Source of the DNA: Maricaulis sp.
GTDB taxonomy: Bacteria; Pseudomonadota; Alphaproteobacteria; Caulobacterales; Maricaulaceae
DNA length: 53,634 bases
Direction: 5' to 3'
NCBI RefSeq assembly: GCF_015665295.1
Contig: NZ_JADFAJ010000031.1
Location: 1-53,634, forward strand
The translations under genes were made by a program, and so were the position numbers. A model generated the notes under the pieces. The model saw nothing but the letters and a program-made list of their open reading frames with translations. It had not been told where the DNA came from and did not search any database. Numbering within the stretch: the first letter of the stretch is position 1; each line of letters begins with the position of its first letter. Below are positions 1,879 to 48,030 of the stretch, piece after piece.

Positions 1879-3399
1879 ATGTCAGACAATAGCGTAAGAA
1901 GAGTGCTGATTGTTGGCGGCGGAACTGCGGGCTGGATGTGCGCCGCAGCCCTGTCGAACGCCTTTCGCGACACGGACATGGCGGTTGAACTCGCAGAAAC
2001 CGAAGCCATCGGCACCGTGGGGGTCGGTGAGGCAACCCGGCCCCATATCCGCCATTTCAACGCCGGCCTCGGCATCGACGAGGCGGATTTCATTCGCGAA
2101 ACCCGCGCGACCTTCAAACTCGCAATCGAGTTTTGCAACTGGAACCGGATCGGCGACAGCTACCTCCACCCGCTCGGCGAATACGGCATGCCCGCAGCCG
2201 AGATCGAGTTCCATCACCTTTGGGCGAGCTTTGTTGAAGACCTCAATGCAAGCGCACTCGACGCCTATTCCCTGCCCATCCAGATGGCACGGGCGAACCG
2301 GTTCGCACCGCCGCACACCGATCCGAACTCCCTGCTCTCGATCTATTCCTACGCCTATCAATTCGATGCCGGACGCTATGCGCGCTATCTGCGAACCTAT
2401 GCCGAGGCACGCGGCGTCACCCGGACCGAGGGCCGCATCCAGTCCGTCGCCCGGAACGGGGCAAACGGCCACATCGCCTCGGTGAGGCTGGAAGATGGCC
2501 GGGTGCTGGCTGCTGATTTCTTTGTCGATTGTTCCGGCTTCAGTGGCCTCCTGATCGAAAAGACGCTCAAGGCCGGATGTGAAGACTGGACCGACTGGCT
2601 GCCCTGCGACCAGGCGCTGGCCGTGCCGTGCGAAGGGTCGAAAGAAATCACGCCTTATACCCGCGCCACCGCGCGCGAGGCCGGCTGGCAATGGCGCATT
2701 CCGCTGCAGCACCGGATCGGCAATGGCTATGTCTATTCGTCCAACCACATATCCGACGATGAAGCCGCCGCGACCCTGCTCGCCAATCTCGACGGCAAGC
2801 CGCTTGCCGACCCCAGATGCCTGCGCTTCGTGACCGACCGGCGCAAACAGGCCTGGGTGAAAAACTGTGTCGCGCTGGGCTTATCCTCCGGCTTCCTGGA
2901 GCCGCTGGAATCGACCTCGATCCACCTGATCCAGAGCGGCATCGCCAAGCTGCTGCAGATGTTCCCGAGCACCGCGTTCGAACAGGCCGATATTGATCGT
3001 TTCAAGGCCCGCACCAAGGAAGAGTTCGAGCGGGTGCGCGACTTCATCATCCTGCACTACAACGCGACGACGCGGGACGACACGCCGTTCTGGGATCATT
3101 GCCGGACCATGCCGGTCCCGCCGGGCCTGGCCGAGAAATACCGCATTTTCGAGGGTTATGGCCGAATCTTCCGGGAAAATGACGAGTCGGTCAATGATAC
3201 CAGCTGGTTCGCGGTGATGATCGGCCAGGGGCTCAGACCGCGCGCCTTCGACCCGGTCGCGGAATGCCTGTCCGAGGACGAAACCCGTCGCCGTCTCGCC
3301 CAGATCCGCCAAGCCATGCAGGCCTCGTCGGATCACATGCCGACCCATGCCGACTTCATCGCCAATAATTGCGCCGCCGAAATGGAGCCCCTGTCATGA
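1879..3399 (+). CDS. tryptophan halogenase-like flavoprotein (xylan locus)
   Basis: A 506-residue member of the flavin-dependent tryptophan halogenase family. Visible are the FAD-binding VGGGTAGWM (residues 12-20), the lysine of the FK motif at residue 80 matching the catalytic lysine of characterised halogenases, WxWxIP at 270-275 and EPLEST at 341-346, the stretch carrying the active-site glutamate. The ATG at 1879 is chosen because GGAG lies 5-8 bases upstream and the GxGxxG fold begins at once; an earlier in-frame ATG at 1735 would add 48 unrelated residues. The stop overlaps the GH43 start (ATGA), so the two are translated together. In Caulobacter-type bacteria such genes recur beside TonB receptors for sugars; their substrate is unknown to me and need not be tryptophan. 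Confidence 0.9.
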   Translation: MSDNSVRRVLIVGGGTAGWMCAAALSNAFRDTDMAVELAETEAIGTVGVGEATRPHIRHFNAGLGIDEADFIRETRATFKLAIEFCNWNRIGDSYLHPLGEYGMPAAEIEFHHLWASFVEDLNASALDAYSLPIQMARANRFAPPHTDPNSLLSIYSYAYQFDAGRYARYLRTYAEARGVTRTEGRIQSVARNGANGHIASVRLEDGRVLAADFFVDCSGFSGLLIEKTLKAGCEDWTDWLPCDQALAVPCEGSKEITPYTRATAREAGWQWRIPLQHRIGNGYVYSSNHISDDEAAATLLANLDGKPLADPRCLRFVTDRRKQAWVKNCVALGLSSGFLEPLESTSIHLIQSGIAKLLQMFPSTAFEQADIDRFKARTKEEFERVRDFIILHYNATTRDDTPFWDHCRTMPVPPGLAEKYRIFEGYGRIFRENDESVNDTSWFAVMIGQGLRPRAFDPVAECLSEDETRRRLAQIRQAMQASSDHMPTHADFIANNCAAEMEPLS

Positions 3400-5108
3400 T
3401 CCGCCACCTTCTGCTGGGCGTCAGCCTTGCCACACTCGCTGCCTGCTCTGCCGACACGGGCGGGACCCCGTCCGCTGGTATCACCCCGGCCCGTTTCGAG
3501 CGCTTCACCTATTCCGGCGGCGACCCGGTCCACGAGGGCGTGCCGCGGGATGCCGGCACATTCCTCAACCCGGTACTCGGCGGCTTCTATCCGGATCCGT
3601 CCAACACGCGCGCCGGTGACGACTATTATCTCGTTACCTCGACCTTTGCCTATTTCCCGGGCCTTCCGGTTTTCCGCTCCAGCGATCTTGTGCATTGGGA
3701 GCAGATCGGCAATGCCATCGACCGCCCGGACCAGGTGAATTTCGGCACGCTGGGCCTGTCGCGCGGCCTGTTCGCACCGGCCATCGAATACCATGACGGC
3801 CTGTTCTACATCCTCAATACCTGTGTCGATTGCGGCGATAATTTCCTGATCACCGCCACCGATCCGTCCGGACCCTGGTCGGACCCGGTCTGGCTGCCCG
3901 ACCTTGTCGGCGCCATCGATCCCTCACTCTTCGTGGACGATGACGGCCGCGCCTACATCCTCAATAACGGTCCGCCGGACCGGGAGCCGGAATACCAGGG
4001 GCACCGTGCCGTCTGGATCCAGGAATTCAATCTGGAAACGCTGGAGACGTTCGGTGAGCGAATCGTTCTGATCGACGGCGGCGTCGATTTTTCCGAACAG
4101 CCGATCTGGATCGAGGGCCCGCACATCTACAAGGTAGACGGACGCTATTACCTGATGGCCGCTGAAGGCGGCACCGCGGAAAACCATTCCCAAGTTGTTC
4201 TGGTGGGCGATGCGCCGATGGGCCCCTACACCGCGTATGAAAACAATCCGGTCCTGACCCAGCGCGACCTGCCCCGCGACCGCGCCAATCCGATCACTTC
4301 GGCCGGCCATGCAGATCTTGTACAGACACCGGACGGCGACTGGTGGGCCACCTTCCTCGCCGTGCGTCCCTATGGCGATGACCAGTACAATACCGGCCGT
4401 GAAACCTTCCTCATGCCGGTCAGTTGGGAGGGCGGCTGGCCACACATCACCGGGCCGGGCGAGGCTATCCCCTATGCCGCCGCCCGCCCCGACCTGCCGG
4501 CCGGCGATCCGGAGATTGCGCCGATGGCCGGCGCCTTCACGGTGATCGACGAGTTCGACACAAGCGAGATGGGCCCGGACTGGATGATGATGCGCAATCC
4601 GCGCGAGACCTGGTGGCAACTCGATGGCGAGGCGCTCGAACTCCAGCCGCGCCCGGTCGGGCTGGGGGATTTTTCCAACCCGTCCTTCTTCGGCCGCCGT
4701 CAGCAGCACATGTTCGGCCAGGCCGAGCTCGCCTTCAGTTTCACGCCCGACACGACCGGTTCTCGCGCCGGACTCGCCGTGCTGCAAAATGACGAATACT
4801 GGTATTTCATCGGCCTCGAACAGACCGAAGACGGGCTGGCCATCCAATTGCGCCGCCGCGCCGGGAGCGACGCCCCGTCAGACGGCACCGTGATCGCCAC
4901 GGCAGGGGTTTCCCTGAACGCGGGCGCCCTGGTCGAGGTCCGGGCCACAGCCCGTGGCCCGCGCTATGATTTCGATTATCGCCTGCCCGATGGCGGCTGG
5001 CAGAATCTGCTGCGTGGTGCCGACGGCACCATCCTCTCCACCCGCACCGCAGGCGGTTTCGTCGGCGTCACGATGGGCCCACACGCCTTCACGCCGACCG
5101 GGGAATAG
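3396..5108 (+). CDS. GH43 beta-xylosidase/arabinofuranosidase, lipoprotein
   Basis: A 570-residue glycoside hydrolase that would release xylose (or arabinose) from xylan oligosaccharides. A lipoprotein signal ends in LAAC (Cys17). The GH43 five-bladed propeller follows: FYPDPSN carries the general-base Asp, AIDPSLFVDDDGRAYI the second Asp, and WIEGPHIYK the acid Glu. From about residue 380 a concanavalin-like beta-sandwich (FDTSEMGPDWMMMR...WWQLDGEALELQPRP) matches the C-terminal domain usual in GH43 beta-xylosidases. ATG at 3396 overlaps the halogenase stop and has GGAG upstream; an earlier in-frame ATG at 3369 lies inside the halogenase and is less likely. It ends 16 bp from the convergent GH115 gene. 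Exact substrate cannot be read from sequence. Confidence 0.92.
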   Translation: MIRHLLLGVSLATLAACSADTGGTPSAGITPARFERFTYSGGDPVHEGVPRDAGTFLNPVLGGFYPDPSNTRAGDDYYLVTSTFAYFPGLPVFRSSDLVHWEQIGNAIDRPDQVNFGTLGLSRGLFAPAIEYHDGLFYILNTCVDCGDNFLITATDPSGPWSDPVWLPDLVGAIDPSLFVDDDGRAYILNNGPPDREPEYQGHRAVWIQEFNLETLETFGERIVLIDGGVDFSEQPIWIEGPHIYKVDGRYYLMAAEGGTAENHSQVVLVGDAPMGPYTAYENNPVLTQRDLPRDRANPITSAGHADLVQTPDGDWWATFLAVRPYGDDQYNTGRETFLMPVSWEGGWPHITGPGEAIPYAAARPDLPAGDPEIAPMAGAFTVIDEFDTSEMGPDWMMMRNPRETWWQLDGEALELQPRPVGLGDFSNPSFFGRRQQHMFGQAELAFSFTPDTTGSRAGLAVLQNDEYWYFIGLEQTEDGLAIQLRRRAGSDAPSDGTVIATAGVSLNAGALVEVRATARGPRYDFDYRLPDGGWQNLLRGADGTILSTRTAGGFVGVTMGPHAFTPTGE

Positions 5109-5124: not shown

Positions 5125-7986
5125 CTACTCGGCCTGCCAGCTTGCGGGCGGGCCGAGATAGGTATCGGGCAGCTCGCCGGTGCGCAGTGACAGGCGCTGG
5201 AAGACCAGACCGGGATCAATGAGCCAGATCCGGATATTTTGGGCGCCCGGCGCCTCGACTGTGTGGCGTGTGGTCAGCACGGTGACACTGTCGGCGACAT
5301 TGCGCATCCAGGCCGCGTGACTGTCATCGGCCTGGACATTGACGATCTCGATCGGCCCGCCATTGAGCTGAACCCCGTAACGCATGCCGCCGCGGTCGAG
5401 ATAATCCAACGTCGGCGACAGGGTGACATCGATCTCGACCTCACCCGTCGACCAGAGCTGGACCGGATAGTCGAGATAGGGGCCCTCGCCCGGCACGTGA
5501 GAGGGTGAGTTGGCCGGCAGGACACTCATGCCGGACCGGCTACGGCCGATTTCGGGAATTTCCACCCAGGCAACGCCATCACCATTCACCGCCGCAGCAT
5601 GGTCGGCAGCCTCGATCGTGACATGGCCATCGGCCTCGACGAAATGACCGGTCACCGTATCGGCTGCCCGCTGGCGGGCGATGACCGGAACCGTGTATTC
5701 GGCGCCGCCAGACCCGGTAACCGTGATCTGACCAGCATGCTCGCCGGCTACCAGCGCTGTCCAGTCGATACTGACCATGACCTCCCCGGCACCGCCTTCG
5801 GTGCGGGACAGGATGATCCAGGCTGCACTCGCCGAAAGCTGCACCAAAGCCCGACGGTCCCCGCGATCGAACACCTCGATCTGGCGATCAGCCTCGCCAT
5901 AGCGGTCAAATACCAGGGCTTCGCCGCCGCTCGACAGGGCCAGCCCGAGATGGGCACCATCAAGCGCCTCGACACGAACCGTTTCCGGCAGGAGATCTTC
6001 CTCTGGCTGTTGCCAATAAGTGTAGGAAATGTGGGTCTGGGACATGAAATGGTTCCATTTCCCGTCCGCCACATCCTCGTGATAGATGCGCTCGAGCTCG
6101 GCATCGCGTTCAAACAGGTAGGCGACCCGGTCTGCCGCCTCATTCGCCGTGACACGGCCCTGGGCTGCCCAAAGGCGGTTGCGGGCTGTCTCGATGTGCA
6201 GCGAATTGAGATTGGCGCTGGCCTGGATCGGGAACCAGACCAGCTGAACAAAGGCGTCGTCGTAGGTTTCAGGCAAACGGGCCCGAACGGCATCCGCCTC
6301 GGCCGCAAGCGCCTGCCACTCCGCCTCGACCCGGTCCGCCTCATCAAACCCGGTCAGCGAGAATGTCCCGGCATCAATCAGCTCGGGTTTGCGGCGGGCG
6401 TTGTATTGGGTGTAGCGGATCAACAGCGCCGCGATCGCATCGGCCTCAGCCTCGCTGAATTGTTCGGCAGCCCAGTCCCGCGTGTAGCCGGACATCGCCT
6501 CCAGCGTCATCGACTCGGGATCCCAGGCGTGGTCAAGAAAGAAGCTGATTGGAAATTCCATCGGCTTGAGATCGCCAACATTGACAATCCAGAGCTCGTG
6601 AGCGCCGTGCTCCCAGGCCAGATTCATCTGCTCCCATGTGCGCTCGATCTGGGTCGTGTTGAGCCATTTATAGTTCCGCGGATCACCGACATAGTCGAAG
6701 TGATAATAGACGCCATAGCCGCCCTCACGATCAGCACCGCGTCTCGGCAGACGCCGGATATTGCCCCAGTTATCGTCCGCAAAAAGCAGGGTCACATCGT
6801 CGGGAACATCCATGCCCTGATCGAAATAGTCCTGCACCTCCTTGTAGAGCGCCCAGACCTGTGGCGTCTCGGAGGCCGGACGGCCTGTCACATCGGCAAT
6901 GATTTCGCGCTGGGCCGCGACCACGCTTTCCAGGAGGGCAATCGCGGTACCCTCGGTCATCGCCTCGTCGCCATCGCCGCGCATGCCGATCGTGACCAGG
7001 CTCTCATGATCACCCATGCGCTCGACACCCTCGCGCCAGAATTCGCGCAAGGTTTCGGGATTGACCGCGAAGTCCCAAGGCCCCTCGCCATAGCGGGCCC
7101 ATTCAACATGGGCCCGCATCAGAGGCTCATGGTGCGAGGTTCCGATCACCACGCCATACAGGTCCGCGGTCGGCGCATTGAGCGGATCATCATCTGAGAA
7201 GGCCTTGCCCCACATGGCCGGCCAGAGATAATTGCCACGCTGGCGCAAGATCAGCTCAAAGACCTGCTCATAGAAATCATGGTTGAATCCGCCATAGCTC
7301 TCATTGACCCAGCCATACAGCGCCGGGTTCTCGTCATTCAGGAATATCCCGCGATAGCGCACCGACGGCGCGTCTAGCCGATGGCCGGCCGAGACCTGGA
7401 GCTGGTCGTGACGGTCAACCGGCACATCGGCCCACCAATGCCACGGCGACACCCCGGATGCGCGCGAGACGTCATAAACGCCATAGATCGCGCCGCGCAT
7501 GTCAGCGCCGGCAATGACCAGCGCCCGCTCAATGCCAGGCGCCGGATTATCGACGACCTGGTGAAGATAGGCTTCCCACACACCGTCGATGCCGGACACA
7601 TCGAGCCGCCCCTCGGCTACCAGGCCATCGATCAGGGCACTGCCGCCAATTGTGCCGACAATAATGGCGCGACCGGCGGCCGCGCCTGCATCGATGGCGA
7701 CCGGCTGGCCGGACACGGCGGCGAGGTCCTCGGCAAGGTCCTCGGCAGCCCGCAACAGGCCCGGCGCGTCATCCGGATCGGTGACGATGGCAGCGGCCAG
7801 CCCGTCCGCGACAAGCGCAAACCCGTCCGCCGCAGGACGACCGGGACAGATCGCGGCCTCACCCGGACAACCTGTCCCGACGTCCGCCTCGGAGGAGGGC
7901 TCTTGCCTGTCAGCCATCGGCTGACAGGCAACCAAGATGACCGCAAAGGCGGCCGGAAGAATGTGCCAGGTTGAAGTCCAGCGCAT
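5125..7986 (-). CDS. GH115 xylan alpha-1,2-glucuronidase, lipoprotein
   Basis: A 953-residue enzyme removing (4-O-methyl)glucuronic acid side chains from glucuronoxylan. The signal ends in VAC (Cys21), suggesting an acylated envelope protein. Family landmarks include SPWHWWADVPV, VRYRGIFLNDENPAL, RQRGNYLWPAMWGKAF, IGTSHHEPLMR, IGMRGDGDEAM, FADDNWGNIRRLP, YYHFDYVGDPRNYKWLNT and VGDLKPMEFP, followed by a long C-terminal region with beta-sandwich character. Length fits the family. It is the second gene after GH3 (33-bp gap), so both probably share the promoter near 10510-10540. The released glucuronate would feed the hexuronate genes at 19812-22613, two of which are broken in this window. Confidence 0.95.
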   Translation of the reverse strand: MRWTSTWHILPAAFAVILVACQPMADRQEPSSEADVGTGCPGEAAICPGRPAADGFALVADGLAAAIVTDPDDAPGLLRAAEDLAEDLAAVSGQPVAIDAGAAAGRAIIVGTIGGSALIDGLVAEGRLDVSGIDGVWEAYLHQVVDNPAPGIERALVIAGADMRGAIYGVYDVSRASGVSPWHWWADVPVDRHDQLQVSAGHRLDAPSVRYRGIFLNDENPALYGWVNESYGGFNHDFYEQVFELILRQRGNYLWPAMWGKAFSDDDPLNAPTADLYGVVIGTSHHEPLMRAHVEWARYGEGPWDFAVNPETLREFWREGVERMGDHESLVTIGMRGDGDEAMTEGTAIALLESVVAAQREIIADVTGRPASETPQVWALYKEVQDYFDQGMDVPDDVTLLFADDNWGNIRRLPRRGADREGGYGVYYHFDYVGDPRNYKWLNTTQIERTWEQMNLAWEHGAHELWIVNVGDLKPMEFPISFFLDHAWDPESMTLEAMSGYTRDWAAEQFSEAEADAIAALLIRYTQYNARRKPELIDAGTFSLTGFDEADRVEAEWQALAAEADAVRARLPETYDDAFVQLVWFPIQASANLNSLHIETARNRLWAAQGRVTANEAADRVAYLFERDAELERIYHEDVADGKWNHFMSQTHISYTYWQQPEEDLLPETVRVEALDGAHLGLALSSGGEALVFDRYGEADRQIEVFDRGDRRALVQLSASAAWIILSRTEGGAGEVMVSIDWTALVAGEHAGQITVTGSGGAEYTVPVIARQRAADTVTGHFVEADGHVTIEAADHAAAVNGDGVAWVEIPEIGRSRSGMSVLPANSPSHVPGEGPYLDYPVQLWSTGEVEIDVTLSPTLDYLDRGGMRYGVQLNGGPIEIVNVQADDSHAAWMRNVADSVTVLTTRHTVEAPGAQNIRIWLIDPGLVFQRLSLRTGELPDTYLGPPASWQAE

Positions 7987-8019: not shown

Positions 8020-10449
8020 TCAGTCGGCCGTCACGGTGAGTGTCACTGCTTGAAGATTGGTCGAATCGGCACCCACCGAGATGGTGAATGTGCCGGGTTC
8101 GACCACCCGCTCCATGTCGAGATTCCAAAGTGACATTGCACGCTCCGTGACTTCAAAACGCAGGGTCTGCGTTTCACCGGCCGCGAGCGAAACCCGCTGG
8201 AAGCCGGCCAGTTGCAGGACCGGCCGTGTCACCACGGCGAGATCATCGCGGATGTAGAGCTGGATAACGTCATCACCGGCGCGGTCACCGGTATTGGTCA
8301 CATCGACCTCGACGAAGGCACTCTGTCCGGCAGGGATCATATCCTCGACCAGACGCGGCTCGGACATCTCGAACGTGGTGTAGGACAGTCCATAACCGAA
8401 CGGGTAGAGCGGCGCCTCCTCGTCGAAGAGATAGCCGCGACGGGCTGATGGTTTGTGATTGTAGAAGACCGGAAGCTGGCCAACCGAACGGGCAATGGTC
8501 ACCGGCAGGTGGCCGCTTGGATTGACCTCGCCCAGCACGACATCGGCGACGCCATTGCCGGTTTCCTGACCCAGATACCAGCCCTCGATCAGGGCATCGG
8601 CGTTCTCGGACAGGAAGTTGACAGCCAGCGGTCGGCCATTCAGCAGGACGACAATGGTCGGCTTTCCGAGGGCGAAGATTGCGCGAGCCAGGTCGAGTTG
8701 CTGCCCGACCAGTTGCAGGTCGGCCCGGTCGCCGAGATGGTTGTCGGCCCAAGCTTCGCGGCTGAGCTGCTCGTTTTCACCGAGCACCATCAGGATGACA
8801 TCGGCCTCGCGGGCGGTCGCGACGGCAGCCTCGATCAGTTCGGCATTGACGGCGGGATCGACGAGGTCGACCTGGTCGGCCGCCCATTGCCGGCTCTCGG
8901 TCAGGCGCACACCTTCCGAATAGACCACCTCAAACCGGCCGGCGGCGGCCTGCTGGAAACCTTCCAGAATGCTCACCACATGACGCGGCTGATCGGAATA
9001 GCCACCGATCGGCGTGTCGACGGCATGGGTGCCGATCACGGCCAGCGTGCCGATTGAATCCGGGTCGAGCGGCAGGGTGTTGTCGCGATTCTCCAGCAGC
9101 ACCATCGCGCGTTGCGCCGCCGTACGGGCCAGGGCTATGGCGTCGTCGGTCGCCGTCCCGGCAACCGCCGCGTCGGCGTCGGCATAGGGGTTTTCCCAAA
9201 CGCCGGAGAGGAATTTCAGGCGCAGGATGCGGCGCACGACCGTGTCGATCTGTTCCTCACTGATCCGGCCCTCCGCCACCATGTCCGGCAGGCTGAGGAA
9301 GCCGTCACCATGCGGCAGTTCGACATCGACACCGGCTTCCAGGGCGCGGATCGCAGCATCCTCGATATTGTCATACATCCCGTGCCGACTGATCAGCTCG
9401 CGAATGGCGAAATAGTCACTGACGACCAGACCTTCATAGCCCCATTCATCGCGCAGCACATCAGTCAGCAGCCAGCGATTGGCGTGGCTGGGGACGCCGT
9501 CAATCTCGTTATATGAGGCCATGATCTGCATGACCTCGGTATCCTCGACCAGGCGCTCGAAGGGCAGCAGGAAATTCTCCCGCAATTCGCGCTCGGAGAT
9601 CTGGGCCGGGCCGATATTCATGCCGCTTTCGGGCTGGCCGTGTCCGGTCATGTGCTTGAGCGTCACGAAGACCCGGTCATCGGCGAGCGGCAGGCCGTCG
9701 CCCTGGAAGCCTCGCACGGCGGCAATGCCCAGCTCGGAGACAAGATAGGGGTCCTCGCCATAGGTTTCCTCGATCCGTCCCCAGCGCTGGTCGCGGGCGA
9801 TGTCGACAATCGGGGCGAGGGTCAGGTGGACGCCGCGCAGGCGCATCTCGCGCGAGGCGACGTTGAACACGTCCTCGAGCAGTTCGGTATCCCAGGTCGA
9901 GGCCAGACCGATGGATTGCGGGAAGCTGGTCGCGTTGGGCGCGACATAGCCGTGCAGCGCTTCTTCATGGAAGAGCAGCGGAATGCCAAGGCGTGTCTCC
10001 TCGATCGCCCAGCGCTGGGCGGCATTGATGTACTCGACCGTCTCGCGTTCATCGCGATTGAGCACACCGGCATTGGCGCCGGCGGCCTGGGTGCCCGGCT
10101 CGACGCCCTGGCGATCATAGGGGCGTGAAATCTGGCCCAGCCCGTTGGGATAGTTCTCGGAAGCACGCTCGGACGAGAAATCGCCGGACGGGGTCTGGAT
10201 TTCAGCCTTGTTCTGCCAGATGCCGACCATCTGGGCGACTTTTTCTTCGAGCGTCATGCGCGAGAGCAGATCCTCGACCCGCGCCTCGACCGTCTGGCTG
10301 GCATCGCGGTAGACCGCGTCCGGGCCGGGACGTTCAGCCTCCTGGGCGGCGCAGGCGGTCTGGCTTGCAAGGATGGCGAGGAGGGCTGCCGGAGCGGCGA
10401 TCCGGCGCGTCAGCCGGACAATATCGAAGGCAGGCGTCTGGACGCTCAT
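8020..10449 (-). CDS. GH3 exo-beta-glycosidase (xylosidase/glucosidase)
   Basis: An 809-residue family 3 hydrolase with an N-terminal secretion signal (AAPAALLAILASQTACA), placing it in the periplasm. The (beta/alpha)8 domain shows RMTLEEKVAQM, LLFHEEALHGY, RWGRIEETYGEDPYL, KHMTGHGQPESG and the nucleophile region GLVVSDYFAI; the alpha/beta sandwich follows (AAQRAMVLLENRDNTLPL), then a fibronectin III-like end (VDVTNTGDRAGDDVIQLYI). The start has GGGGAAG about 10 bases upstream. It is the first gene of a GH3-GH115 pair divergent from the GntR regulator. Context in a glucuronoxylan locus argues for beta-xylosidase activity, but GH3 specificity is not decidable from sequence alone. Confidence 0.92.
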   Translation of the reverse strand: MSVQTPAFDIVRLTRRIAAPAALLAILASQTACAAQEAERPGPDAVYRDASQTVEARVEDLLSRMTLEEKVAQMVGIWQNKAEIQTPSGDFSSERASENYPNGLGQISRPYDRQGVEPGTQAAGANAGVLNRDERETVEYINAAQRWAIEETRLGIPLLFHEEALHGYVAPNATSFPQSIGLASTWDTELLEDVFNVASREMRLRGVHLTLAPIVDIARDQRWGRIEETYGEDPYLVSELGIAAVRGFQGDGLPLADDRVFVTLKHMTGHGQPESGMNIGPAQISERELRENFLLPFERLVEDTEVMQIMASYNEIDGVPSHANRWLLTDVLRDEWGYEGLVVSDYFAIRELISRHGMYDNIEDAAIRALEAGVDVELPHGDGFLSLPDMVAEGRISEEQIDTVVRRILRLKFLSGVWENPYADADAAVAGTATDDAIALARTAAQRAMVLLENRDNTLPLDPDSIGTLAVIGTHAVDTPIGGYSDQPRHVVSILEGFQQAAAGRFEVVYSEGVRLTESRQWAADQVDLVDPAVNAELIEAAVATAREADVILMVLGENEQLSREAWADNHLGDRADLQLVGQQLDLARAIFALGKPTIVVLLNGRPLAVNFLSENADALIEGWYLGQETGNGVADVVLGEVNPSGHLPVTIARSVGQLPVFYNHKPSARRGYLFDEEAPLYPFGYGLSYTTFEMSEPRLVEDMIPAGQSAFVEVDVTNTGDRAGDDVIQLYIRDDLAVVTRPVLQLAGFQRVSLAAGETQTLRFEVTERAMSLWNLDMERVVEPGTFTISVGADSTNLQAVTLTVTAD

Positions 10450-10509
10450 ACTGGTGTCTTCCCCTTTGACAGGCCGGATCAGCGACGGTCCGGCGCTTAG
10501 CTTTGCGCG

Positions 10510-10540
10510 ATAGTAAGACGAGGCATGGGGGGAAGGTCAA
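10510..10540 (-). promoter_or_regulatory. candidate sigma-70 promoter for GH3-GH115
   Basis: On the minus strand TTGACC (10540-10535) is followed after 19 bp by TACTAT (10515-10510), or after 17 bp by CTTACT. The GntR-type operator at 10542-10561 abuts the -35 upstream. Sequence match only. Confidence 0.4.
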
Positions 10541-10541
10541 T

Positions 10542-10561
10542 GCATTTGTCCGAGTAAATGC
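10542..10561. promoter_or_regulatory. GntR-type operator A (GH3 / gntR divergent region)
   Basis: GCATTTGTCCGAGTAAATGC has 6-bp perfect inverted arms (GCATTT/AAATGC) and the core TTGTCCGA shared with sites at 11566, 18673 and 21146. The FadR subfamily of GntR regulators is known for TNGTNNNACNA operators; this site has GT instead of AC in the right half. It lies between the GH3 and gntR genes, so autoregulation is likely. Confidence 0.6.
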
Positions 10562-10715
10562 GCCCATATGGACACCCCTGCCGCCTGGAAGTAAGACCGT
10601 AGACACAAAAGCATTGGGAATCGTGGCGGTTTATCGCCTAACCCAACCTGCCCGCTGGACGGACAGGCGACAGGCCAAAAGACTGCCCAGACAGCACGAC
10701 AGAAGGACGATCGAC

Positions 10716-40170: not shown

Positions 40171-41802
40171 TCAGGCGCGCTGGGCGAGCACGCCGGCATA
40201 GGCCGGCAAGCGGCCACCCTCGCCTGAAATATTGACCTGCTCGATCACCCGCCAGCCTGCGGGCATGTCCCAGCTGATCGGCTCTGCAGTCAGATTGAAG
40301 ATGCAGAGGACGGCAGCCTCGCCGGAGCCGCGCTCGAAGGCCAGCAAGCTTTCGGCACCGGTCTCGATGACCCGCATGGCACCGGTTCGAAGCGAAGGAT
40401 GATCCGCCCGCAATCGTACAAAGCGGCGAGCAAGGTGCAAGGTTGCATCTGGATCTGCCTCCTGGGCATCGACTGCGAGATCAAAATGACGGGCATCAAC
40501 CGGCAACCAGGGCTCGGCCTCGGAGAAACCGCCATGCCGCCCCTGACGCGTCCAGGGCATGGGCGTACGCGCTCCGTCCCGGCCCAGCGTCTGCGGCCAG
40601 TTGGCGATCGCCTCGGGATCCTGAAGCCGGTCAAACGGGACCATTGCCTGCGGCAGGCCAAGTTCTTCACCCTGGTAGATAAACACATTCCCGCGCATGG
40701 CCACGAGCAGGAGCAAGGCCATATTCGCGAAAGCCTCGCGATCCCCTTCGGCCGCCCAGCGCGACACCGCTCGCGGGGCGTCATGATTTGAGAAGGTCCA
40801 GGACGGCCAGCCACTCACACCGTCTGACGGCCACAGGTCGGCAGCCGAACGAACGAGGGCCGGATCAAGCGATTCGGCATAGAGATAGAGAAAACCATAG
40901 GCCGAATGGAGGCGGCCGGGACGGCGCGTGTACAGCTCCATCTCCTCCTGCGCCCGCTCGCCACCAACTTCGGCAACCAGAAAGCGCCCCTCATAACTGT
41001 CCGCCAATGCTCGCATGCGCTCGAGAAAAGCCGGGATATCGGGGTGGGACTGGTTGAAATAATGGTGCTGGAAGTCGAACGGCCGCGTCCGACGGGCACC
41101 GGTGGTCTTGATCGGCGGATTATCGTGCAGCGCCGGATCGTGCATCATGAAATTCACGGCGTCGAGGCGGATACCGTCGACGCCGCGATCCAGCCAGAAC
41201 GCCATCGTATCAAGCAACTCTTCCTGAACGTCCGGATTGTGAACATTGAGGTCCGGTTGCTCGGGCAGGAAGTTGTGCATGTAGTACTGGCCGCGCCGCG
41301 CGTCCCAGGTCCAGGACGGACCACCAAAGACGGATTGCCAGTTGTTCGGGGGCGAGCCATCCGGCTTGGCATCGGCCCAGACATACCAGTCGGCCTTGTC
41401 ATTGGCTCGGCTCGAACGGCTTTGCTGGAACCAGGCGTGAGCTTCGGACGTATGAGAATATACCTGATCGATCAGGACCTTCAGGCCCAAGGCGTGCGCC
41501 CGCTCAAGCAGCACATCGAAGTCATCAAGAGTTCCGAAAATCGGGTCGACGCCGCGATAGTCGGCAACGTCATAACCAAAGTCCCGCATGGGAGATGTGA
41601 AGAAGGGCGACAGCCAGATCGCATCCACGCCGAGCGAGGCGACATGATTGAGCCGCGCAGTAATGCCAGGCAGATCGCCGATACCGTCATTGTTCGAATC
41701 GAAAAAACTGCGCGGGTAGATCTGATAGATCACCGCGCCCTTCCACCACTCAGACGTCGGCTGGTCCTGCGACCGCTGCTCGGATTGCGCGTCCAACTCC
41801 AC
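40171..41802 (-). CDS. GH13 alpha-glucosidase (oligo-1,6/1,4-glucosidase type)
   Basis: A 543-residue cytoplasmic enzyme, no signal, splitting maltose and short oligosaccharides. WWKGAVIYQIYPRSFFDSNNDGIGDLPGI is the typical opening of oligosaccharide-acting GH13. Catalytic parts: DQVYSHTS (region I), GIRLDAVNF (Asp, II), LVAEVGG (Glu, III), FSNHDAPR (Asp, IV); QPDLNVHNP is the region V variant of exo-acting members. The start is GTG 41802 with GGGGAGG 6-12 bases upstream. Divergent from the TonB receptor, with operator-like sites between. It would finish what the MFS transporter brings in. Confidence 0.93.
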   Translation of the reverse strand: MELDAQSEQRSQDQPTSEWWKGAVIYQIYPRSFFDSNNDGIGDLPGITARLNHVASLGVDAIWLSPFFTSPMRDFGYDVADYRGVDPIFGTLDDFDVLLERAHALGLKVLIDQVYSHTSEAHAWFQQSRSSRANDKADWYVWADAKPDGSPPNNWQSVFGGPSWTWDARRGQYYMHNFLPEQPDLNVHNPDVQEELLDTMAFWLDRGVDGIRLDAVNFMMHDPALHDNPPIKTTGARRTRPFDFQHHYFNQSHPDIPAFLERMRALADSYEGRFLVAEVGGERAQEEMELYTRRPGRLHSAYGFLYLYAESLDPALVRSAADLWPSDGVSGWPSWTFSNHDAPRAVSRWAAEGDREAFANMALLLLVAMRGNVFIYQGEELGLPQAMVPFDRLQDPEAIANWPQTLGRDGARTPMPWTRQGRHGGFSEAEPWLPVDARHFDLAVDAQEADPDATLHLARRFVRLRADHPSLRTGAMRVIETGAESLLAFERGSGEAAVLCIFNLTAEPISWDMPAGWRVIEQVNISGEGGRLPAYAGVLAQRA

Positions 41803-41884: not shown

Positions 41885-42096
41885 TTGATCTGCTTTCTTG
41901 TCAATCGCCGTTTCGAGCACAGTAGCGCGATATAATAGACCTCAAGGCGACATTTGATGGTGTAACATTCTCGCATCACGTCGGGATACGATTCAAAGAT
42001 CGCAATATTGCCAGTTGCCGCATGAAATAGTTTTCATTAATTTGCACTGGAATGGCGGCGGCAAATTTCCTGTCGACACGCCGGAGGGAGGACTAA

Positions 42097-44862
42097 ATGA
42101 CCAATCAACGCACCACTCGTCGTGGCTGGCTTCTGACCAGCGCGGCATCCACACTGGCCCTGTCGATGGCGCTGGCCGCGCCGGCCTCGGCACAAGACCA
42201 AGCAGAGGAAGCGTCTGGCGATGTGATCACCGTCACCGGCTTCCGCAGCTCGATCGAAAGCTCAATCGCGGTTAAGCGCGAATCGACCTCGATCGTCGAG
42301 GCCATTTCGGCGGAAGACATCGGTCGCCTGCCGGACAACTCGATCGCAGAATCACTGGCACGCCTGCCCGGCCTCGCCGCCCAGCGCCTGCGCGGACGCG
42401 CCCAGGTGATTTCGGTGCGCGGTCTCGGCCCGGATTTCACCACCGCGCTGCTGAATGGCCGCGAACAGGTCACCGCCGGCGACAATCGTGGCGTCGAGTT
42501 CGACCAGTATCCGTCGGAGCTGTTGAGCTCGGTTGTTGTCTACAAGACACCTGACGCCCAGCTGGTCGGCCAGGGCTTGGCCGGCACAGCTGACCTTCGC
42601 ACCGTGCGCCCGCTGGATCGCGACGAGCGGACGATTGCCATCTCCGGCCGCTATGAGTGGAACCAGTACGGCGCCCTCAATGCCGGTTCAGAAGATAACG
42701 GCCACCGCGTCACCGGCTTCTACATTGACCAGTTCGCCAACGACACCATCGGCCTCGCGCTCGGCTTTGCCTCGCAATCCTCCCCGACGCAGAGTGAGCG
42801 CTGGGATGCTTGGGGTTATCCGACCGTCGGTGCCGGCGACTTGCTGCTTGGCGGCGCCAAGCCGTACGTCGAGAGCCGGCAACTCGAGCGCACCGCCTTC
42901 GTCGGCACGCTGGAATTTGAACCGAACGCCAATTCCCACACGACGATCGACGCCTTCTACTCGCAGTTCGAGGACACGGGCATCCTGCGCGGCATCGAAC
43001 TGCCGCTCGCCTGGGGTGGCGCGACGCTGCAGCCGGGTTACACGGTTGAAGACGGGCTGGTTACGGCTGGCACATTCTCCGGCGTCCAGGGCGTGGTCCG
43101 CAATGACACGCGCTTCCGCGAAGCGGACGTTATGTCATTCGGCGTCAACCACGAACAACGCCTGAACGACCAGTGGACCGGCACGATCGACCTTTCCTAT
43201 TCGAGCGTCGAACGTGACGATACGGACTACGAGTCCTATGCGGGTACCGGATCCGGCTTCGGCAATGGCGCATCCGACACGCTCGCCTTCCAACTTGGTG
43301 GCGGCGGCGGCTTCATTTTCGGTTCAAGCCTCGATTATGCCGACCCGAGCCTTCTGCTGCTGACCGACCCGCAGGGCTGGGGCCAAGCCGGCTTCATCAA
43401 GCGGCCGTCAACGGAAGACACGCTCTCCGCACTGCGCGTTGAAGCCGAGCGGGAAATCTCGCAAGGTTTCTTCTCCAGCGTCGAAGTCGGCATCTACGCC
43501 ACGGATCGTGAAAAATCCAAGCGCTCTGTGGAAGACTTCATCGACCTGGCCAACCCCGGCGCGACGAACACCACGGCAATCCCGGGCGATCTCCTGCTCG
43601 AGCCGACCAGCCTCGACTTCATCGGCATTGCCGGCATGGTCAGCTATGACCCGCTTGCCCTTCTGAACAGCGGCGTCTACTCGCTGCGCCCGAATCTGAA
43701 CGCTGATGTTCTGACCAAATCCTGGGATGTCGAAGAACAGCAGGTGATTGGCTATCTTCAGGCCAATGTCGACTCGGTCCTCGGAAACACGCCGGTTCGG
43801 GGTAATTTCGGCCTGCAGATTGTGCATACCGAACAGTCCTCGACGGGCCCTCGCGTCGGTCAGGGCGCCCTCTTGGCCTACACGGAAGACGAGGCTTACT
43901 CACACCTTCTGCCGAGCGCCAACTTCTCGTTTGAAGTGGCCGAAAACACCTTCGTCCGCGTAGGCGCCGCCCGCACACTGGCCCGTCCGCGCATGGACGA
44001 GCTGCGCGCCTCGCAGGAAATCAGCATCAACTCCCAGGTCTGCACGCCAGACGATGGTAGCGGGAATCCAGCCTTCGACGCGGCCAATTACGACCTCGCC
44101 GGCGGGCAGTCCTGCCTGACTCTGTCCGGCGGCTCGCCGCGCCTGCGTCCGGTCACTGCCGACGCGATCGACCTGTCAATCGAACACTATTTTGCTGACG
44201 GGGCCGGCTACGTTTCTGCCGCTCTCTTCAACAAGGATATCGATAATTACGTGTTCGGTTCTGCGGCTCGTACGATCGACATGACGGATGCCGCGAATGC
44301 TATCTTCGGCGGCGCCTTCACCGCCGCCAACCCGCAGCTCACGACCGGTATCCTGTACGAGCCGGTCAACACGGATGGTGGCTATATTCGCGGTATCGAG
44401 CTGGCGACCAACATCCCGGGCGACGCCGTCGCACCCTGGCTTGCCGGTTTCGGCCTTCTGGCCAGCTACTCCTACACAGAGAGCGAGGTCCAGCCGGATC
44501 CCAACCAGGCACCGATCGCAATTCCGGGCCTGTCGGAAAATGTCGGCAACCTGACCGTCTACTATGAGAATGGTGGTTTCGAGGCTCGGATCTCCAACCG
44601 CTGGCGTTCGGAGTTCCTCGGCGAGGTCACCGGTTTCGGTGCCAACCGCGAGTTCCGCAATGTCGAAGCGGAGTCGGTCATCGACGCCCAGATCGGCTAC
44701 GAGTTCGGGCCGGGCCCGCTGGATGGGCTGGCGATCTTCGCTCAGGGCAACAACCTGACCGACGAAGCCTTCGTTACATTCCTCAATGACGACCCGCGCC
44801 AGGTTAAGGACTATCAGCAGTATGGCGCGACCTACCTCGTCGGCTTTAGCTGGCGTCGCTAA
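42097..44862 (+). CDS. TonB-dependent receptor, probable maltodextrin uptake
   Basis: A 921-residue outer-membrane receptor. The signal peptide (RRGWLLTSAASTLALSMALAAPASAQ) ends about residue 32. The plug shows VITVTGFRSSIESS, SAEDIGRLPDNSIAESLARLPG, ISVRGLGPDFTTALLNGREQ and LSSVVVYKTPDAQLVGQGLAGTADLRTVRPL. The barrel follows and ends in GFSWRR; a late NLTDEAF box is common in this class. It is intact, in contrast to the receptor remnant at 1004. It resembles the maltose receptor MalA of Caulobacter in type and in its neighbours. A strong terminator follows at 44892. The next gene is a halogenase-like gene on the same strand. Confidence 0.92.
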   Translation: MTNQRTTRRGWLLTSAASTLALSMALAAPASAQDQAEEASGDVITVTGFRSSIESSIAVKRESTSIVEAISAEDIGRLPDNSIAESLARLPGLAAQRLRGRAQVISVRGLGPDFTTALLNGREQVTAGDNRGVEFDQYPSELLSSVVVYKTPDAQLVGQGLAGTADLRTVRPLDRDERTIAISGRYEWNQYGALNAGSEDNGHRVTGFYIDQFANDTIGLALGFASQSSPTQSERWDAWGYPTVGAGDLLLGGAKPYVESRQLERTAFVGTLEFEPNANSHTTIDAFYSQFEDTGILRGIELPLAWGGATLQPGYTVEDGLVTAGTFSGVQGVVRNDTRFREADVMSFGVNHEQRLNDQWTGTIDLSYSSVERDDTDYESYAGTGSGFGNGASDTLAFQLGGGGGFIFGSSLDYADPSLLLLTDPQGWGQAGFIKRPSTEDTLSALRVEAEREISQGFFSSVEVGIYATDREKSKRSVEDFIDLANPGATNTTAIPGDLLLEPTSLDFIGIAGMVSYDPLALLNSGVYSLRPNLNADVLTKSWDVEEQQVIGYLQANVDSVLGNTPVRGNFGLQIVHTEQSSTGPRVGQGALLAYTEDEAYSHLLPSANFSFEVAENTFVRVGAARTLARPRMDELRASQEISINSQVCTPDDGSGNPAFDAANYDLAGGQSCLTLSGGSPRLRPVTADAIDLSIEHYFADGAGYVSAALFNKDIDNYVFGSAARTIDMTDAANAIFGGAFTAANPQLTTGILYEPVNTDGGYIRGIELATNIPGDAVAPWLAGFGLLASYSYTESEVQPDPNQAPIAIPGLSENVGNLTVYYENGGFEARISNRWRSEFLGEVTGFGANREFRNVEAESVIDAQIGYEFGPGPLDGLAIFAQGNNLTDEAFVTFLNDDPRQVKDYQQYGATYLVGFSWRR

Positions 44863-44891
44863 CAGCTTCCTTCCCGAAGCGAACCCCTCCG

Positions 44892-44923
44892 CCCCTGCCT
44901 GCCTCGTGCAGGCAGGGGTTTTT
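44892..44923 (+). terminator. Rho-independent terminator after TonB receptor
   Basis: CCCCTGCCTGC (44892-44902), loop CTCGT, GCAGGCAGGGG (44908-44918), then TTTTT. The 11-bp stem is perfect. It would insulate the halogenase-like gene at 45002, or reduce its expression to a share of read-through. Confidence 0.93.
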
Positions 44924-45001
44924 CTTTGTCGGCACGGGCGGCAAACTGACCCCTTGCGCCGCACGCCCGGCGCCCCCCTTGCCCGAGAACGGTAGGCAGC
45001 C

Positions 45002-46516
45002 ATGAAGACCAGTCGCATCAAATCAGCCCTCATCGTCGGCGGCGGCACGTCAGGCTGGATGGCGGCTGCCGCACTCTCGCGCTTCTTGGGCACGACGCTC
45101 GATATCAAGCTGGTCGAATCCGAACAGATCGGGACGGTCGGCGTTGGTGAAGCGACGATTCCGCAGATCAAGCACCTCAACTCCGCCCTCGGGATCGACG
45201 AGCGCGACTTCGTCGCCCGAACCAATGGCTCGTTCAAACTGGGGATCGAGTTCATCAACTGGCGGCGCCAGGGCGAAGCCTATTTGCATAATTTCGGTTC
45301 GATCGGCCTCAATCTGCAACAAGTACCCTTCCATCACTACTGGCTGCGCGCCCGTGCCGAGGGCTCAAGCGAAAGCCTGTGGGACTACTGCCTGAATACG
45401 GCGGCAGCCCGCCAGATGCGTTTTTCGCCACTTGAGAAAGTTGGCAATTCACCACTTTCCGGTGTCGCTTACGCCTACCATTTCGACGCCACGCTTTACG
45501 GGCAATTCCTGCGCGCCTATGCCGAGCAACGCGGCGTAACCCGCATTGAAGGCTTGATTGAAAGCACGGACATGGATCCGGAGAACGGCAATGTGACCGC
45601 CGTGCGCCTGAAAGACGGACGCACGCTCGCTGCCGACCTCTTCATCGACTGCTCCGGCTTCCGCGGCCTGCTGATCGAACAGGCCCTCGGGACGGGCTAT
45701 GAGGACTGGACCCGCTGGCTGCCCTGCGACCGCGCCATCCCGGTTCCCAGCTCGAATGCGACCGCGCCTATCCGCCCCTATACCCAATCCATCGCCCATA
45801 GCGCCGGCTGGCAGTGGCGCATCCCCCTGCAGCACCGCACCGGCAATGGCCACGTGTTTTCCAGCGCCCATGTGAGCGAAGCCGATGCAACTGATACGCT
45901 GATGGCGAATCTGGAAGGAGAGGCGCTGGCCGAGCCACGCGTGATCCGATTTGTGACGGGTCGCCGCAAACAGTTCTGGAACCGCAATGTTGTGGCCCTG
46001 GGTCTGTCGGCCGGCTTCCTGGAACCGCTGGAGTCGACCTCGATTCATCTCGTCCAGTCGGGTATCAGCCGGCTCATCGCGCTCTTCCCGGACGGCGACT
46101 TTGCCGCTGCCGACCAAGATGAGTACAATCGCCAAATGGCGCTGGAGTATGAGCGCGTCCGCGACTTCATCATCCTGCACTACCACCTTAATGAACGAAC
46201 CGATTCCGACTTCTGGCAAGACTGCGCCGCGATGTCGGTTCCCGACACGCTGGCCGCCAAGCTCGACCTTTTCCGCGCCAATGGCCGCCTCTATCATCGG
46301 GAGGAAGACCTGTTCACCGATTCAAGCTGGCTCCAGGTCATGCTCGGCCAAGGCGTCATGCCAAGGGGCTACCATCCAATGGCTGATGTTCTGCCCGCCG
46401 ACCAACTGCATGATTTCCTGGCCAATATCGGGAAGATTGTCGGCCAGGCCGCAGCAACAATGCCGACTCATTCGGAGTTTCTCGCCAGGCATTGTCCGGC
46501 GGCGATGGACGCCTAG
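45002..46516 (+). CDS. tryptophan halogenase-like flavoprotein (maltodextrin locus, copy 1)
   Basis: A 504-residue member of the halogenase family. IVGGGTSGWM (11-20) binds FAD, Lys79 lies in the FK motif, WQWRIP (270-275) is the family signature and FLEPLESTSIHL carries the active-site Glu region. It starts 139 bp after the TonB receptor, beyond a terminator. Its end shares the sequence CTAG with the stop of the convergent copy 2. It is close to the other two copies in this window (same order of motifs, similar length), so they are paralogues. The substrate is unknown; a role in receptor-linked sugar uptake or signalling has been suggested only by such gene neighbourhoods. Confidence 0.9.
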   Translation: MKTSRIKSALIVGGGTSGWMAAAALSRFLGTTLDIKLVESEQIGTVGVGEATIPQIKHLNSALGIDERDFVARTNGSFKLGIEFINWRRQGEAYLHNFGSIGLNLQQVPFHHYWLRARAEGSSESLWDYCLNTAAARQMRFSPLEKVGNSPLSGVAYAYHFDATLYGQFLRAYAEQRGVTRIEGLIESTDMDPENGNVTAVRLKDGRTLAADLFIDCSGFRGLLIEQALGTGYEDWTRWLPCDRAIPVPSSNATAPIRPYTQSIAHSAGWQWRIPLQHRTGNGHVFSSAHVSEADATDTLMANLEGEALAEPRVIRFVTGRRKQFWNRNVVALGLSAGFLEPLESTSIHLVQSGISRLIALFPDGDFAAADQDEYNRQMALEYERVRDFIILHYHLNERTDSDFWQDCAAMSVPDTLAAKLDLFRANGRLYHREEDLFTDSSWLQVMLGQGVMPRGYHPMADVLPADQLHDFLANIGKIVGQAAATMPTHSEFLARHCPAAMDA

Positions 46517-48030
46517 CCGTCTGCCTTGCAGAAGCGTTCGATGTATGCGCGGTGATCCGGCACGGGCGTTACCGCCTCCGCCATGACCCGGCGCAAGCCA
46601 GCCAGCCGCTCGGCACCGTCCACCGGGCTGCCCACAACCAGCGGATCGAGCCCGTCGGGTTCAATCCCCTGACCGGCATAGACTGCCATCCAGGACGGAT
46701 TGAGGAAGAGCTCCGTACCCGGCGAGACCAGGCGGCCCGTGGCGCGAAAATGCTCCATCCGCCAGGACAGGCTGTCCGGGATATCCATATTGGCCGTGTA
46801 ACGCCAAAGCGGCGCGTCATCCCGTGTCGTCGCGTGATAGTGAAGAATGAGGAAATCGCGGATGCGCTCATATTCCTCACCGGTCAACCGGTTGAACTCG
46901 GCAGCCTCAAGGCTGTTATCCCGCTTGCCGGGAAACAGGGCCAGCAGGCGATTGATACCTGTCTGGATCAGGTGAAGGCTGGTGGACTCAAGCGGCTCCA
47001 TGAAACCGGCCGACAGACCCAGGGCCACAACATTGCGGTTCCAGAATTTGCGACGCCGGCCGGTTGTGAAGCGAAGCGGGCGCGGATCAGCGATTGGCCT
47101 GCCGTCGATATTGGCCATCAGTGTGTCGCTGGCCTCCGCGTCCGTGATGAACTGGCTGGCGTAGACATGGCCATTGCCGGTGCGGTGCTGCAGCGGGATG
47201 CGCCATTGCCAACCAGCTTCGCGCGCTGTCGAGCGGGTGTAGGATGTGAATTCCCCGGCTGTCTCGCACGGCACAGCCACGGCGCGGTCACAGGGCAGCC
47301 AATGGGTCCAGTCCTCATAGCCGGTCTTGAGCGCTTTCTCGATCAGCAATCCGACAAAGCCAGTGCAGTCGATGAAGAAATCAGCCTCGATCGTGCGCCC
47401 GCTTTCCATCACGACCGCAGTGACGTCACCGATCTCGGACAGACGCGTCTCAACGACCCGACCTTCCTCGCGAAGCACGCCACGCGCCTCGGAATAACGA
47501 CGCAGGAAGCGACCATAGAGAATGGTATCAAAATGGTAGGCGTAGTCGAAGGTCGACTGGACGAGACGCGGGTCCCGGGCAGGCGGCGAGAACCGGTTCT
47601 CACGGGCAATCACCCAGGCCATGGAATAGGCATCAAGCGGCGTCACATCACCGCGTTGTCGCTCCCGCAGCCAATATTGGTAGAGCGGCACGGAATCAAA
47701 ATCCCGACCGTGGCTTCCGAACGGATGAAAATAGCGCTGCCCCTTGCGCGACCAGTCGACGAATTCGATGCCCAGCTTGAACGACCCCTGGGTCTCGCGC
47801 ACGAACTCATTCTCGTCGATACCCAGCATTTGGTTGAACAGCTTGATCGGCGGAATAGTCGCCTCACCCACGCCAACGACACCGATCTGCTCGGATTCGA
47901 CCAGCGTGACCGATGCGGCTCCCTTGGTGGCGTTGATAATGGCAGCTGCCGCCATCCAGCCCGCTGATCCACCACCAACTATGGCAATCCGTGGCAAGCC
48001 GCTCTCGGGATCAACGGATTGGGGCGGCAT
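46513..48030 (-). CDS. tryptophan halogenase-like flavoprotein (maltodextrin locus, copy 2)
   Basis: A 505-residue paralogue of the genes at 1879 and 45002. IAIVGGGSAGWM (16-26) binds FAD; Lys85 is in GSFKLGIEF; WQWRIPLQHRTGNGHVY and FMEPLESTSLHL are conserved. ATG 48030 has only a weak ribosome site (GAAAG). It is divergent from the GH13 gene at 48251, with a 17-bp palindrome and other dyads between, and convergent with copy 1, their stops overlapping by 3 bp. Confidence 0.9.
   Translation of the reverse strand: MPPQSVDPESGLPRIAIVGGGSAGWMAAAAIINATKGAASVTLVESEQIGVVGVGEATIPPIKLFNQMLGIDENEFVRETQGSFKLGIEFVDWSRKGQRYFHPFGSHGRDFDSVPLYQYWLRERQRGDVTPLDAYSMAWVIARENRFSPPARDPRLVQSTFDYAYHFDTILYGRFLRRYSEARGVLREEGRVVETRLSEIGDVTAVVMESGRTIEADFFIDCTGFVGLLIEKALKTGYEDWTHWLPCDRAVAVPCETAGEFTSYTRSTAREAGWQWRIPLQHRTGNGHVYASQFITDAEASDTLMANIDGRPIADPRPLRFTTGRRRKFWNRNVVALGLSAGFMEPLESTSLHLIQTGINRLLALFPGKRDNSLEAAEFNRLTGEEYERIRDFLILHYHATTRDDAPLWRYTANMDIPDSLSWRMEHFRATGRLVSPGTELFLNPSWMAVYAGQGIEPDGLDPLVVGSPVDGAERLAGLRRVMAEAVTPVPDHRAYIERFCKADG

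Follow-up and report, generated by a model that had tools for sequence, protein, structure and literature searches.

Putative flavin-dependent halogenases in TonB-receptor loci of Maricaulis and other Proteobacteria

We examined a stretch of 53,634 nucleotides from Maricaulis sp. (contig NZ_JADFAJ010000031.1, forward strand; "the window" throughout), which carries three genes of the tryptophan halogenase family PF04820 (hal1, hal2 and hal3) in two polysaccharide loci. In many water and soil bacteria such halogenases adjoin outer-membrane receptors for plant or algal sugars, and it is very probable that they are linked to receptor loci with the chemistry of halogenation retained. A comparison of gene content across loci identifies the receptor, of at least three types, as the constant partner, whereas the sugar genes change. 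No listing in the open-licence literature that we searched, which omits most subscription journals, describes this association. The enzyme family is known from BrvH and Xcc4156, and the receptor cassette with its degraded paralogue is new as far as we have searched; the "undescribed" step of an earlier, sequence-only reading of the window is, within these searches, undescribed in its association and not in its enzyme.

Receptors and halogenases across loci

The survey comprised two sets of loci and a set of controls. In an order-level sample of 120 genomes, PF04820 had a match in 80, above the cut-off in 77; 80 neighbourhoods, none longer than 20 kb, together with the window and a second contig of the same genome (C11), make up the 82 order loci. 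The 80 regions were hand-picked from among the matches listed in order of E-value, with some of the listed places omitted, and so the counts below apply to high-scoring members of the canonical kind. For the 80 wider loci, which come from Alpha-, Beta- and Gammaproteobacteria, the best of 581 confirmed stretches were taken; their alignment was led by hal2, so this set leans towards starch loci. Two wider loci (L166 and L222) repeat order loci, and two halogenases are identical between L128 and L166. Twenty control stretches were taken from the same genomes at positions chosen by round numbers; the window (54 kb) and C11 (40 kb) are longer than both the 20-kb loci and the controls.

A TonB-dependent receptor of the TIGR01782 type is present in 77 of the 82 order loci and 68 of the 80 wider loci, versus two of the 20 controls with a first profile and one with a second (Fisher test, 1e-13 for the order and 4e-10 for the wider set, with related loci treated as independent). 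The receptor is close to the halogenase, within 500 bp in 128 of the 145 loci that have this receptor type and within 3 kb in 141. LacI-type regulators are also common (49/82 order, 37/80 wider, 0/20 controls), SapC is rare (6/82, 2/80 and 1/20), and the controls contain one GH115 and no halogenase. Distance correlation, tried as a discriminator in 25 starch loci, did not discriminate between partners (halogenase versus receptor 0.62, GH13 0.61, GH97 0.55).

Among the 17 loci that lack a TIGR01782-type receptor, eight that were tested hold another receptor type according to Pfam. Four have plug-domain receptors (L117, also with LacI and MFS genes; L126; L134; and L231, also with GH32) and four have receptors of the OMP_b-brl_4/CarboxypepD_reg type (L180, L193, L197 and L237). 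Six of these eight receptors lie within 200 bp of the halogenase, and the others at 1.5 kb (L231) and 3.4 kb (L180). For the remaining nine loci (L071, L137, L170, L208, L215, L216, L232, L234 and L243) no receptor was established; here the L071 halogenase is next to a contig end, L170 is near one, the L234 contig measures 3.8 kb, and L137 is probably part of the same starch locus as L136. A large open reading frame in L243, considered as a candidate receptor, turned out to be a GH9 enzyme.

The sugar enzymes are variable, and the halogenase loci contain GH43/GH115, GH97/GH13, GH16/GH3 or GH32 combinations. The sequence-only reading had placed the modification with glycan uptake, perhaps on a glycan. 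Its link to receptor loci extends to three proteobacterial classes, but the tie to a glycan is unsupported because the sugar enzymes vary across loci while the receptor stays. It is accordingly very unlikely that the target is the imported glycan itself or its aromatic decorations, such as the feruloyl groups of xylan. Xylan can carry ferulate, and the genes do sit in glycan-use loci, but related halogenases also accompany starch-, beta-glucan- and GH32 (sucrose/fructan-) type enzymes, whose substrates, judged from the enzyme families, would have no aromatic groups.

The closest described systems are the CUT loci (Blanvillain 2007, PMC1790865), which have in common with the window a receptor, a regulator, glycosidases and an inner-membrane transporter; in contrast to the window loci, no halogenase is mentioned, as the word does not occur in that text. 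Transcripts of tryptophan halogenases have been assigned to Colwellia and phages, with speculation, in the part of the paper available, on virus-host receptor interactions (PMC11337851).

Retained chemistry, cassette paralogues and a mosaic gene

The three window proteins match PF04820 (cut-off 21 bits) over their whole length. As the sequence-only reading had noticed, each has the FAD motif (GxGxxG), the catalytic lysine of the FK motif, WxWxIP, and the Glu-Ser-Thr halide site within EPLEST. These features are essentially fixed in the canonical members of the family. The lysine, both WxWxIP tryptophans and the EPLES core occur in all 154 canonical members of the order-level loci, and K79, E344, S345, W270 and W272 are invariant in all 276 canonical members (271 distinct sequences), with T346 in 272. 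Two of the window genes, hal2 and hal3, are also under strong constraint: comparison with two congeners gives them dN/dS values of 0.07-0.08, and the receptor one of 0.05.

In sequence, the window halogenases group with their closest solved relatives, BrvH (PDB 6frl), Xcc4156 (6y1w) and 9luq, which have the same motifs, and apart from PrnA. The identity of hal2 is 49% to these three and 41% to PrnA, and that of hal1 and hal3 is 45-48% and 38%, respectively. The two segments that form the substrate site are the same length in the window proteins as in BrvH and 9luq. The loop-1 segment has 19 residues in these proteins, 13 in Xcc4156 and 16 in PrnA, and therefore does not by itself separate PrnA. 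The loop-2 segment has 29 residues in the window proteins, BrvH, Xcc4156, 9luq and 274 of the 276 canonical members; local alignment of the window halogenases to PrnA stops inside this loop. Because the catalytic residues are invariant, loop 2 has the BrvH length and dN/dS is low for hal2 and hal3, the window genes most likely encode working FADH2-dependent halogenases of the open-site kind. They are probably brominases.

BrvH and Xcc4156 are active on indole and not on free tryptophan, have an open site, and have been proposed to act on peptides, their native substrates being given as unknown in the available portions of both papers (PMC5945002, PMC7336383). PrnA, RebH and PyrH belong to the same superfamily and differ in their gene neighbours. 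They act on free tryptophan within pathways, and we take the lysine/glutamate chemistry (PrnA residue numbering) to be common to them and the window halogenases. A secondary-metabolite pathway on free tryptophan, like that of PrnA or RebH, would suit the Pfam name and the identical catalytic residues. We give it only a slim chance, since the window proteins are 38-41% identical to PrnA versus 45-49% to the BrvH group, with loop lengths as in BrvH, and the 45 largest protein clusters of the 82 loci, most of them not identified by family search, included no recognisable pathway neighbours. In addition, free tryptophan is not halogenated by BrvH and Xcc4156 according to the part of the report available (PMC7336383). 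The claim that the three genes do not belong to an indole pathway stands to this extent: no such pathway was recognised, and the halogenation residues are kept throughout the canonical relatives.

The halogenases occur in three cassette layouts. In layout A, typical of starch-type loci, the receptor is followed by a halogenase on the same strand and often by a convergent second one; the window has this layout at 42097-48030, where the stop codons of hal2 and hal3 overlap by 4 bp tail to tail (46513-46516), and a convergent pair of this kind is seen again at other starch loci. In layout B, four tandem halogenases are divergent from the receptor. Layout C consists of a receptor, SapC in some loci, a Cupin_8 gene and a halogenase. 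Contig C11 has layout B, with four PF04820 members in tandem (75463-81518) beside a receptor, GH16 and GH3; with the three window genes these are the only seven members that the family search found in the genome. In a tree of 314 members, one clade of 30 contains all 18 B1 genes, another of 23 all 18 B2 genes, and a third of 39 has 22 of the 24 A2 genes (support 1.0). Paralogues B1, B2 and A2 are shown by this tree to hold their place across families.

B2 is the exceptional member of the four-gene cassette. In 18 such cassettes it is low-scoring every time and never has both the catalytic lysine and glutamate, each of which is kept in two of the 18. In one pair of cassettes its dN/dS is 0.36, versus 0.08-0.14 for its neighbours. 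As judged by its residues and position, B2 is shown to be a catalytically degraded paralogue held at a fixed place. Among all 38 low-scoring halogenases, 13 keep both catalytic residues. We do not claim a single origin for these 38, for which unrooted support is 0.83, but nine branch apart in a PrnA-rooted tree.

The retention of B2 in 18 cassettes, and a weak NCBIfam similarity of the halogenases to QhpG and LodB, would fit a non-halogenating role, either hydroxylation of protein tryptophan by maturases of the QhpG/LodB type or a structural or regulatory function involving the degraded paralogue. We consider such a role unlikely: every canonical member has the lysine and the serine of the halide site, relatives brominate in vitro, and B2 changes faster than its neighbours.

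The solved relatives can be placed on the same map by similarity, with all sampled sequences coming from the survey. The nearest survey halogenases are of type C for Xcc4156, front genes of two-halogenase loci for BrvH, and starch-locus genes for 9luq, and the three proteins thus appear to fall near three different receptor-locus classes. A second halogenase gene adjoins BrvH, as the available part of its description states (PMC5945002), which fits its two-halogenase class. The word "TonB" is absent from the text of the BrvH and Xcc4156 papers as far as available (PMC5945002, PMC7336383).

The first locus of the window is a collapsed layout B cassette. A congener (G113, locus L074) has a xylan-type locus with a whole receptor of 1084 residues and four halogenases, and the window is collinear with it on either side of two gaps. 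The first gap corresponds to L074 2165-6100 and is a simple deletion that leaves about 208 receptor codons, the rest of this receptor not being found elsewhere in the assembly. The second gap falls within hal1. Residues 1-186 of hal1 best match B1 (63%), residues 241-506 match B4 (90.6%), and residues 187-240 are ambiguous, while the frame is open and the catalytic motifs are kept. Read from these alignments, hal1 is a natural in-frame fusion of cassette paralogues B1 and B4, beside a truncated receptor. Nothing in the genome closely matches the B2 protein of L074 (27-33%), the family has only seven members there, and the C11 halogenases group with other C11-like cassettes in the tree; B2 and B3 of the first locus are therefore gone from the assembly. 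The three paralogues that the sequence-only reading counted are confirmed as genes, but one is this mosaic, and four others lie elsewhere in the genome.

Relaxed constraint of hal1 after receptor loss was considered and set aside. Before splitting, the hal1 pair ranked first for unevenness among 59 (branch 0.358 versus 0.085; Tajima chi-squared 42), and the adjacent GH43, GH115 and GH3 genes are not accelerated; because hal1 is a B1/B4 mosaic, this fast change is mostly an artefact. After splitting, changes unique to hal1 and to L074 number 27:12 (nearest outgroup) and 22:13 for the N part against B1, and 25:8 and 24:7 for the C part against B4, with dN/dS of 0.26 and 0.17 for the N and C parts. 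The remaining excess of replacements is modest, is a single case, and is not relied on.

Window layout and neighbouring oxygenases

The features of the window are collected in Table 1. The xylan-type locus occupies 1-10.5 kb and the starch-type locus 31-50 kb. The latter has all four components of a CUT locus (receptor, regulator, glycosidases and transporter), whereas the former has no intact receptor. The glycosidase and TonB-receptor neighbours of the sequence-only reading are thus borne out, apart from the receptor of the first locus.

Table 1. Coordinates of features in the window and, where stated, in other contigs or loci
Feature	Position	Strand	Remarks
TIGR01782-type TonB receptor remnant, about the first 208 codons	1001-1633	-	80-82% identity to L074 receptor residues 4-208
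hal1, B1/B4 mosaic	1879-3399	+	506 aa; PF04820 633 bits; catalytic motifs kept
GH43, beta-xylosidase-type	3396-5108	+	xylan-type locus
GH115	5125-7986	-	xylan-type locus
GH3	8020-10449	-	xylan-type locus
Cupin_8/JmjC-like protein	31103-32299	-	PF13621, 215 bits; HxD...H kept
Esterase family protein	32178-33230	-	PF00756; starch-type locus
GH97	33160-35256	-	starch-type locus
GH13	35401-37269	+	starch-type locus
MFS transporter	37351-38883	-	starch-type locus
LacI-family regulator	39033-40166	+	starch-type locus
GH13	40171-41802	-	starch-type locus
TGTCGACA palindrome, possible operator (weak)	42071-42078	.	upstream of starch receptor
TonB-dependent receptor, intact, TIGR01782 type	42097-44862	+	TIGR01782 570 bits, cut-off 310
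G+C-rich hairpin with T run, terminator- or attenuator-like	44892-44927	+	between receptor and hal2
hal2, type A1, directly behind starch receptor	45002-46516	+	PF04820 667 bits
hal3, type A2, convergent with hal2	46513-48030	-	PF04820 632 bits; A2 clade
TGTCGACA palindrome, possible operator (weak)	48092-48099	.	between hal3 and GH13
GH13, divergent from hal3	48206-49645	+	starch-type locus
C11 B2 halogenase, second cassette position	C11: 77039-78484		without catalytic Lys/Glu pair
DUF6445 example	L105: 11612-12307
DUF6445 example	L236: 3398-4072

Two short elements of the starch-type locus may bear on expression. Through the strong hairpin between the receptor and hal2, the enzyme may be expressed at a lower level. 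An exact TGTCGACA palindrome precedes the receptor gene in the window and in the congeners L075 and L100. One also precedes hal3 in the window and in L086, and the L075 copy at this second place has one mismatch. The palindrome is absent from most of the other 14 among 18 starch loci scanned, and is a weak candidate for a LacI operator.

The sequence-only reading also proposed a partnership with the JmjC-like cupin of the window, whose start codon is likely the ATG near 32134. The iron ligands HxD...H are kept in all 27 related cupins, the window protein included, and its nearest relatives in the PDB are JMJD5 and FIH, JmjC-type hydroxylases with the same core; the window protein, unlike these, is bacterial, and presumably has an arginine in place of the lysine that binds 2-oxoglutarate in FIH. 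Cupin_8 genes are found in 16 of the 82 order loci and 11 of the 80 wider loci (27/162 together), versus none of the 20 controls. The one in the window is separated from the starch halogenases by some 13 kb, lies beyond the esterase and GH97 genes, and is the only Cupin_8 protein above the cut-off in the genome, which has 23 receptor barrel matches and a single SapC about 1 kb from a receptor. The partnership therefore recurs but is not the rule, and we regard it as secondary.

A second family, DUF6445 (PF20043), is absent from the window but occurs in eight order loci and nine wider loci, versus none of the controls. HxD...H...R is invariant in the eight members aligned, and a structural model (pLDDT 91.5) matches Fe/2-oxoglutarate oxygenases, with HygX and PHD2 among the best. 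This family of unknown function is predicted from the model to consist of Fe/2-oxoglutarate oxygenases. The presence of protein hydroxylases among the relatives of both oxygenases fits a protein substrate. The predicted structure of SapC (pLDDT 42) was not used.

Three further regions were noted. A cluster of the sugar-acid catabolic type (10503-16637; GntR regulator, IlvD/EDD dehydratase, aldose epimerase, SMP-30 lactonase and sugar transporter) lies between the two loci. At 26491-29117 are an ABC ATPase with a TOBE domain and a periplasmic binding protein, a transporter set which we take to be molybdate-type. Beyond the last GH13 gene, 49701-53621 (minus strand) encodes a glycine-rich, repetitive protein of 1306 residues with an autotransporter-like look and no Pfam match at 1e-6.

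What the halogenases may modify

Our preferred reading, held tentatively, is that a peptide or protein is halogenated as an accessory step of the receptor loci. The halogenases would be an accessory part of TonB-receptor nutrient loci, outside any recognisable indole biosynthesis, and would act in the cytoplasm, as at most 25 residues precede the FAD motif in 101 of 154 members, even in the longest open reading frame. The open site of the solved relatives is compatible with an aromatic side chain as target, on a peptide or protein made together with the receptor, either the receptor's own precursor or a different envelope protein. Oxygenases of the Cupin_8 and DUF6445 families may act alongside at some of the loci.

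A small aromatic product ranks close behind and is nearly as likely. Here a halogenated aromatic, such as an indole-type signal or deterrent, would be made, and the receptor neighbours would tie its production to feeding. This alternative is possible, and several observations agree with it. BrvH brominates indole at C3, as given in the portion of the paper available (PMC5945002), LacI regulators accompany the halogenases, several paralogues could yield several products, and a shared small molecule would tolerate differing receptor types beside the halogenases. However, no biosynthetic partner gene was recognised in the 45 largest clusters (again mostly not identified by family search), a single shared signal does not readily account for the position-keeping paralogues B1, B2 and A2, and the open site is without the residues that hold free tryptophan, according to the available part of the Xcc4156 report (PMC7336383).

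A number of results weigh against a protein substrate, and in particular against the receptor. In 73 halogenase-adjacent receptors no tryptophan column exceeds 63%, and the conserved W306, W428 and W543 are found just as often in the six of 81 starch receptors that have no halogenase nearby (79 of the 81 are distinct, and one of the six, L288, ends at a contig end). By the thresholds used, no column separates the starch receptors with and without a halogenase in this set. One genome (G027) has a starch receptor locus and no PF04820 match at all, and the receptor types beside halogenases have little sequence in common. The idea of a receptor tryptophan as universal target was rejected, since no tryptophan column follows the halogenases; for the same reason receptor modification is weak, and the target site, if on the receptor, is not conserved. 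Receptor loci without halogenases, namely the six starch receptors and that of G027, imply that the halogenation step is accessory.

Other candidate targets and routes fared similarly. No conserved small precursor peptide was recognised among 9642 small open reading frames outside profile-recognised genes, the groups among them looking, by eye, like antisense or unmasked coding sequence. A Tat-like receptor signal, which would hold the receptor in the cytoplasm within reach of the enzymes, was rejected because it is not enriched (RR in 41 of 155 halogenase-adjacent receptors with a recognisable signal, 3 of 12 non-adjacent ones and 2 of 12 in the set from the same genome), and a C-terminal receptor tryptophan (16/158 versus 0/15) is not general. 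Kinship to protein hydroxylases proves nothing about the substrate of the cupin, and the best Foldseek match of DUF6445 is HygX, which was co-crystallised with an antibiotic. Finally, B3, B4 and A1 are not clean clades (9/18 each for B3 and B4; 25/46 for A1, with low support), and fixed cassette positions could be produced by operon co-inheritance alone.

The most specific form of the protein-substrate reading is that a cassette of up to three active halogenases and a degraded partner, with Fe/2-oxoglutarate oxygenases in some loci, halogenates aromatic residues before export, on the precursor of the TonB receptor or on an envelope protein made alongside it. We consider this form doubtful. If true, it would represent a novel class of protein modification in bacteria, one by which receptors for nutrients (and phages) are tuned, and would explain what orphan brominases such as BrvH and Xcc4156 do for the cell. 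The structures and in vitro activities of these two enzymes are published, in papers whose available portions name no native substrate (PMC5945002, PMC7336383). The placement of their relatives in receptor loci, at defined cassette positions, names a condition, growth on the sugar of the locus, and a set of molecules, the receptor and the locus proteins, to examine for halogen, and so makes the question of the substrate directly testable.

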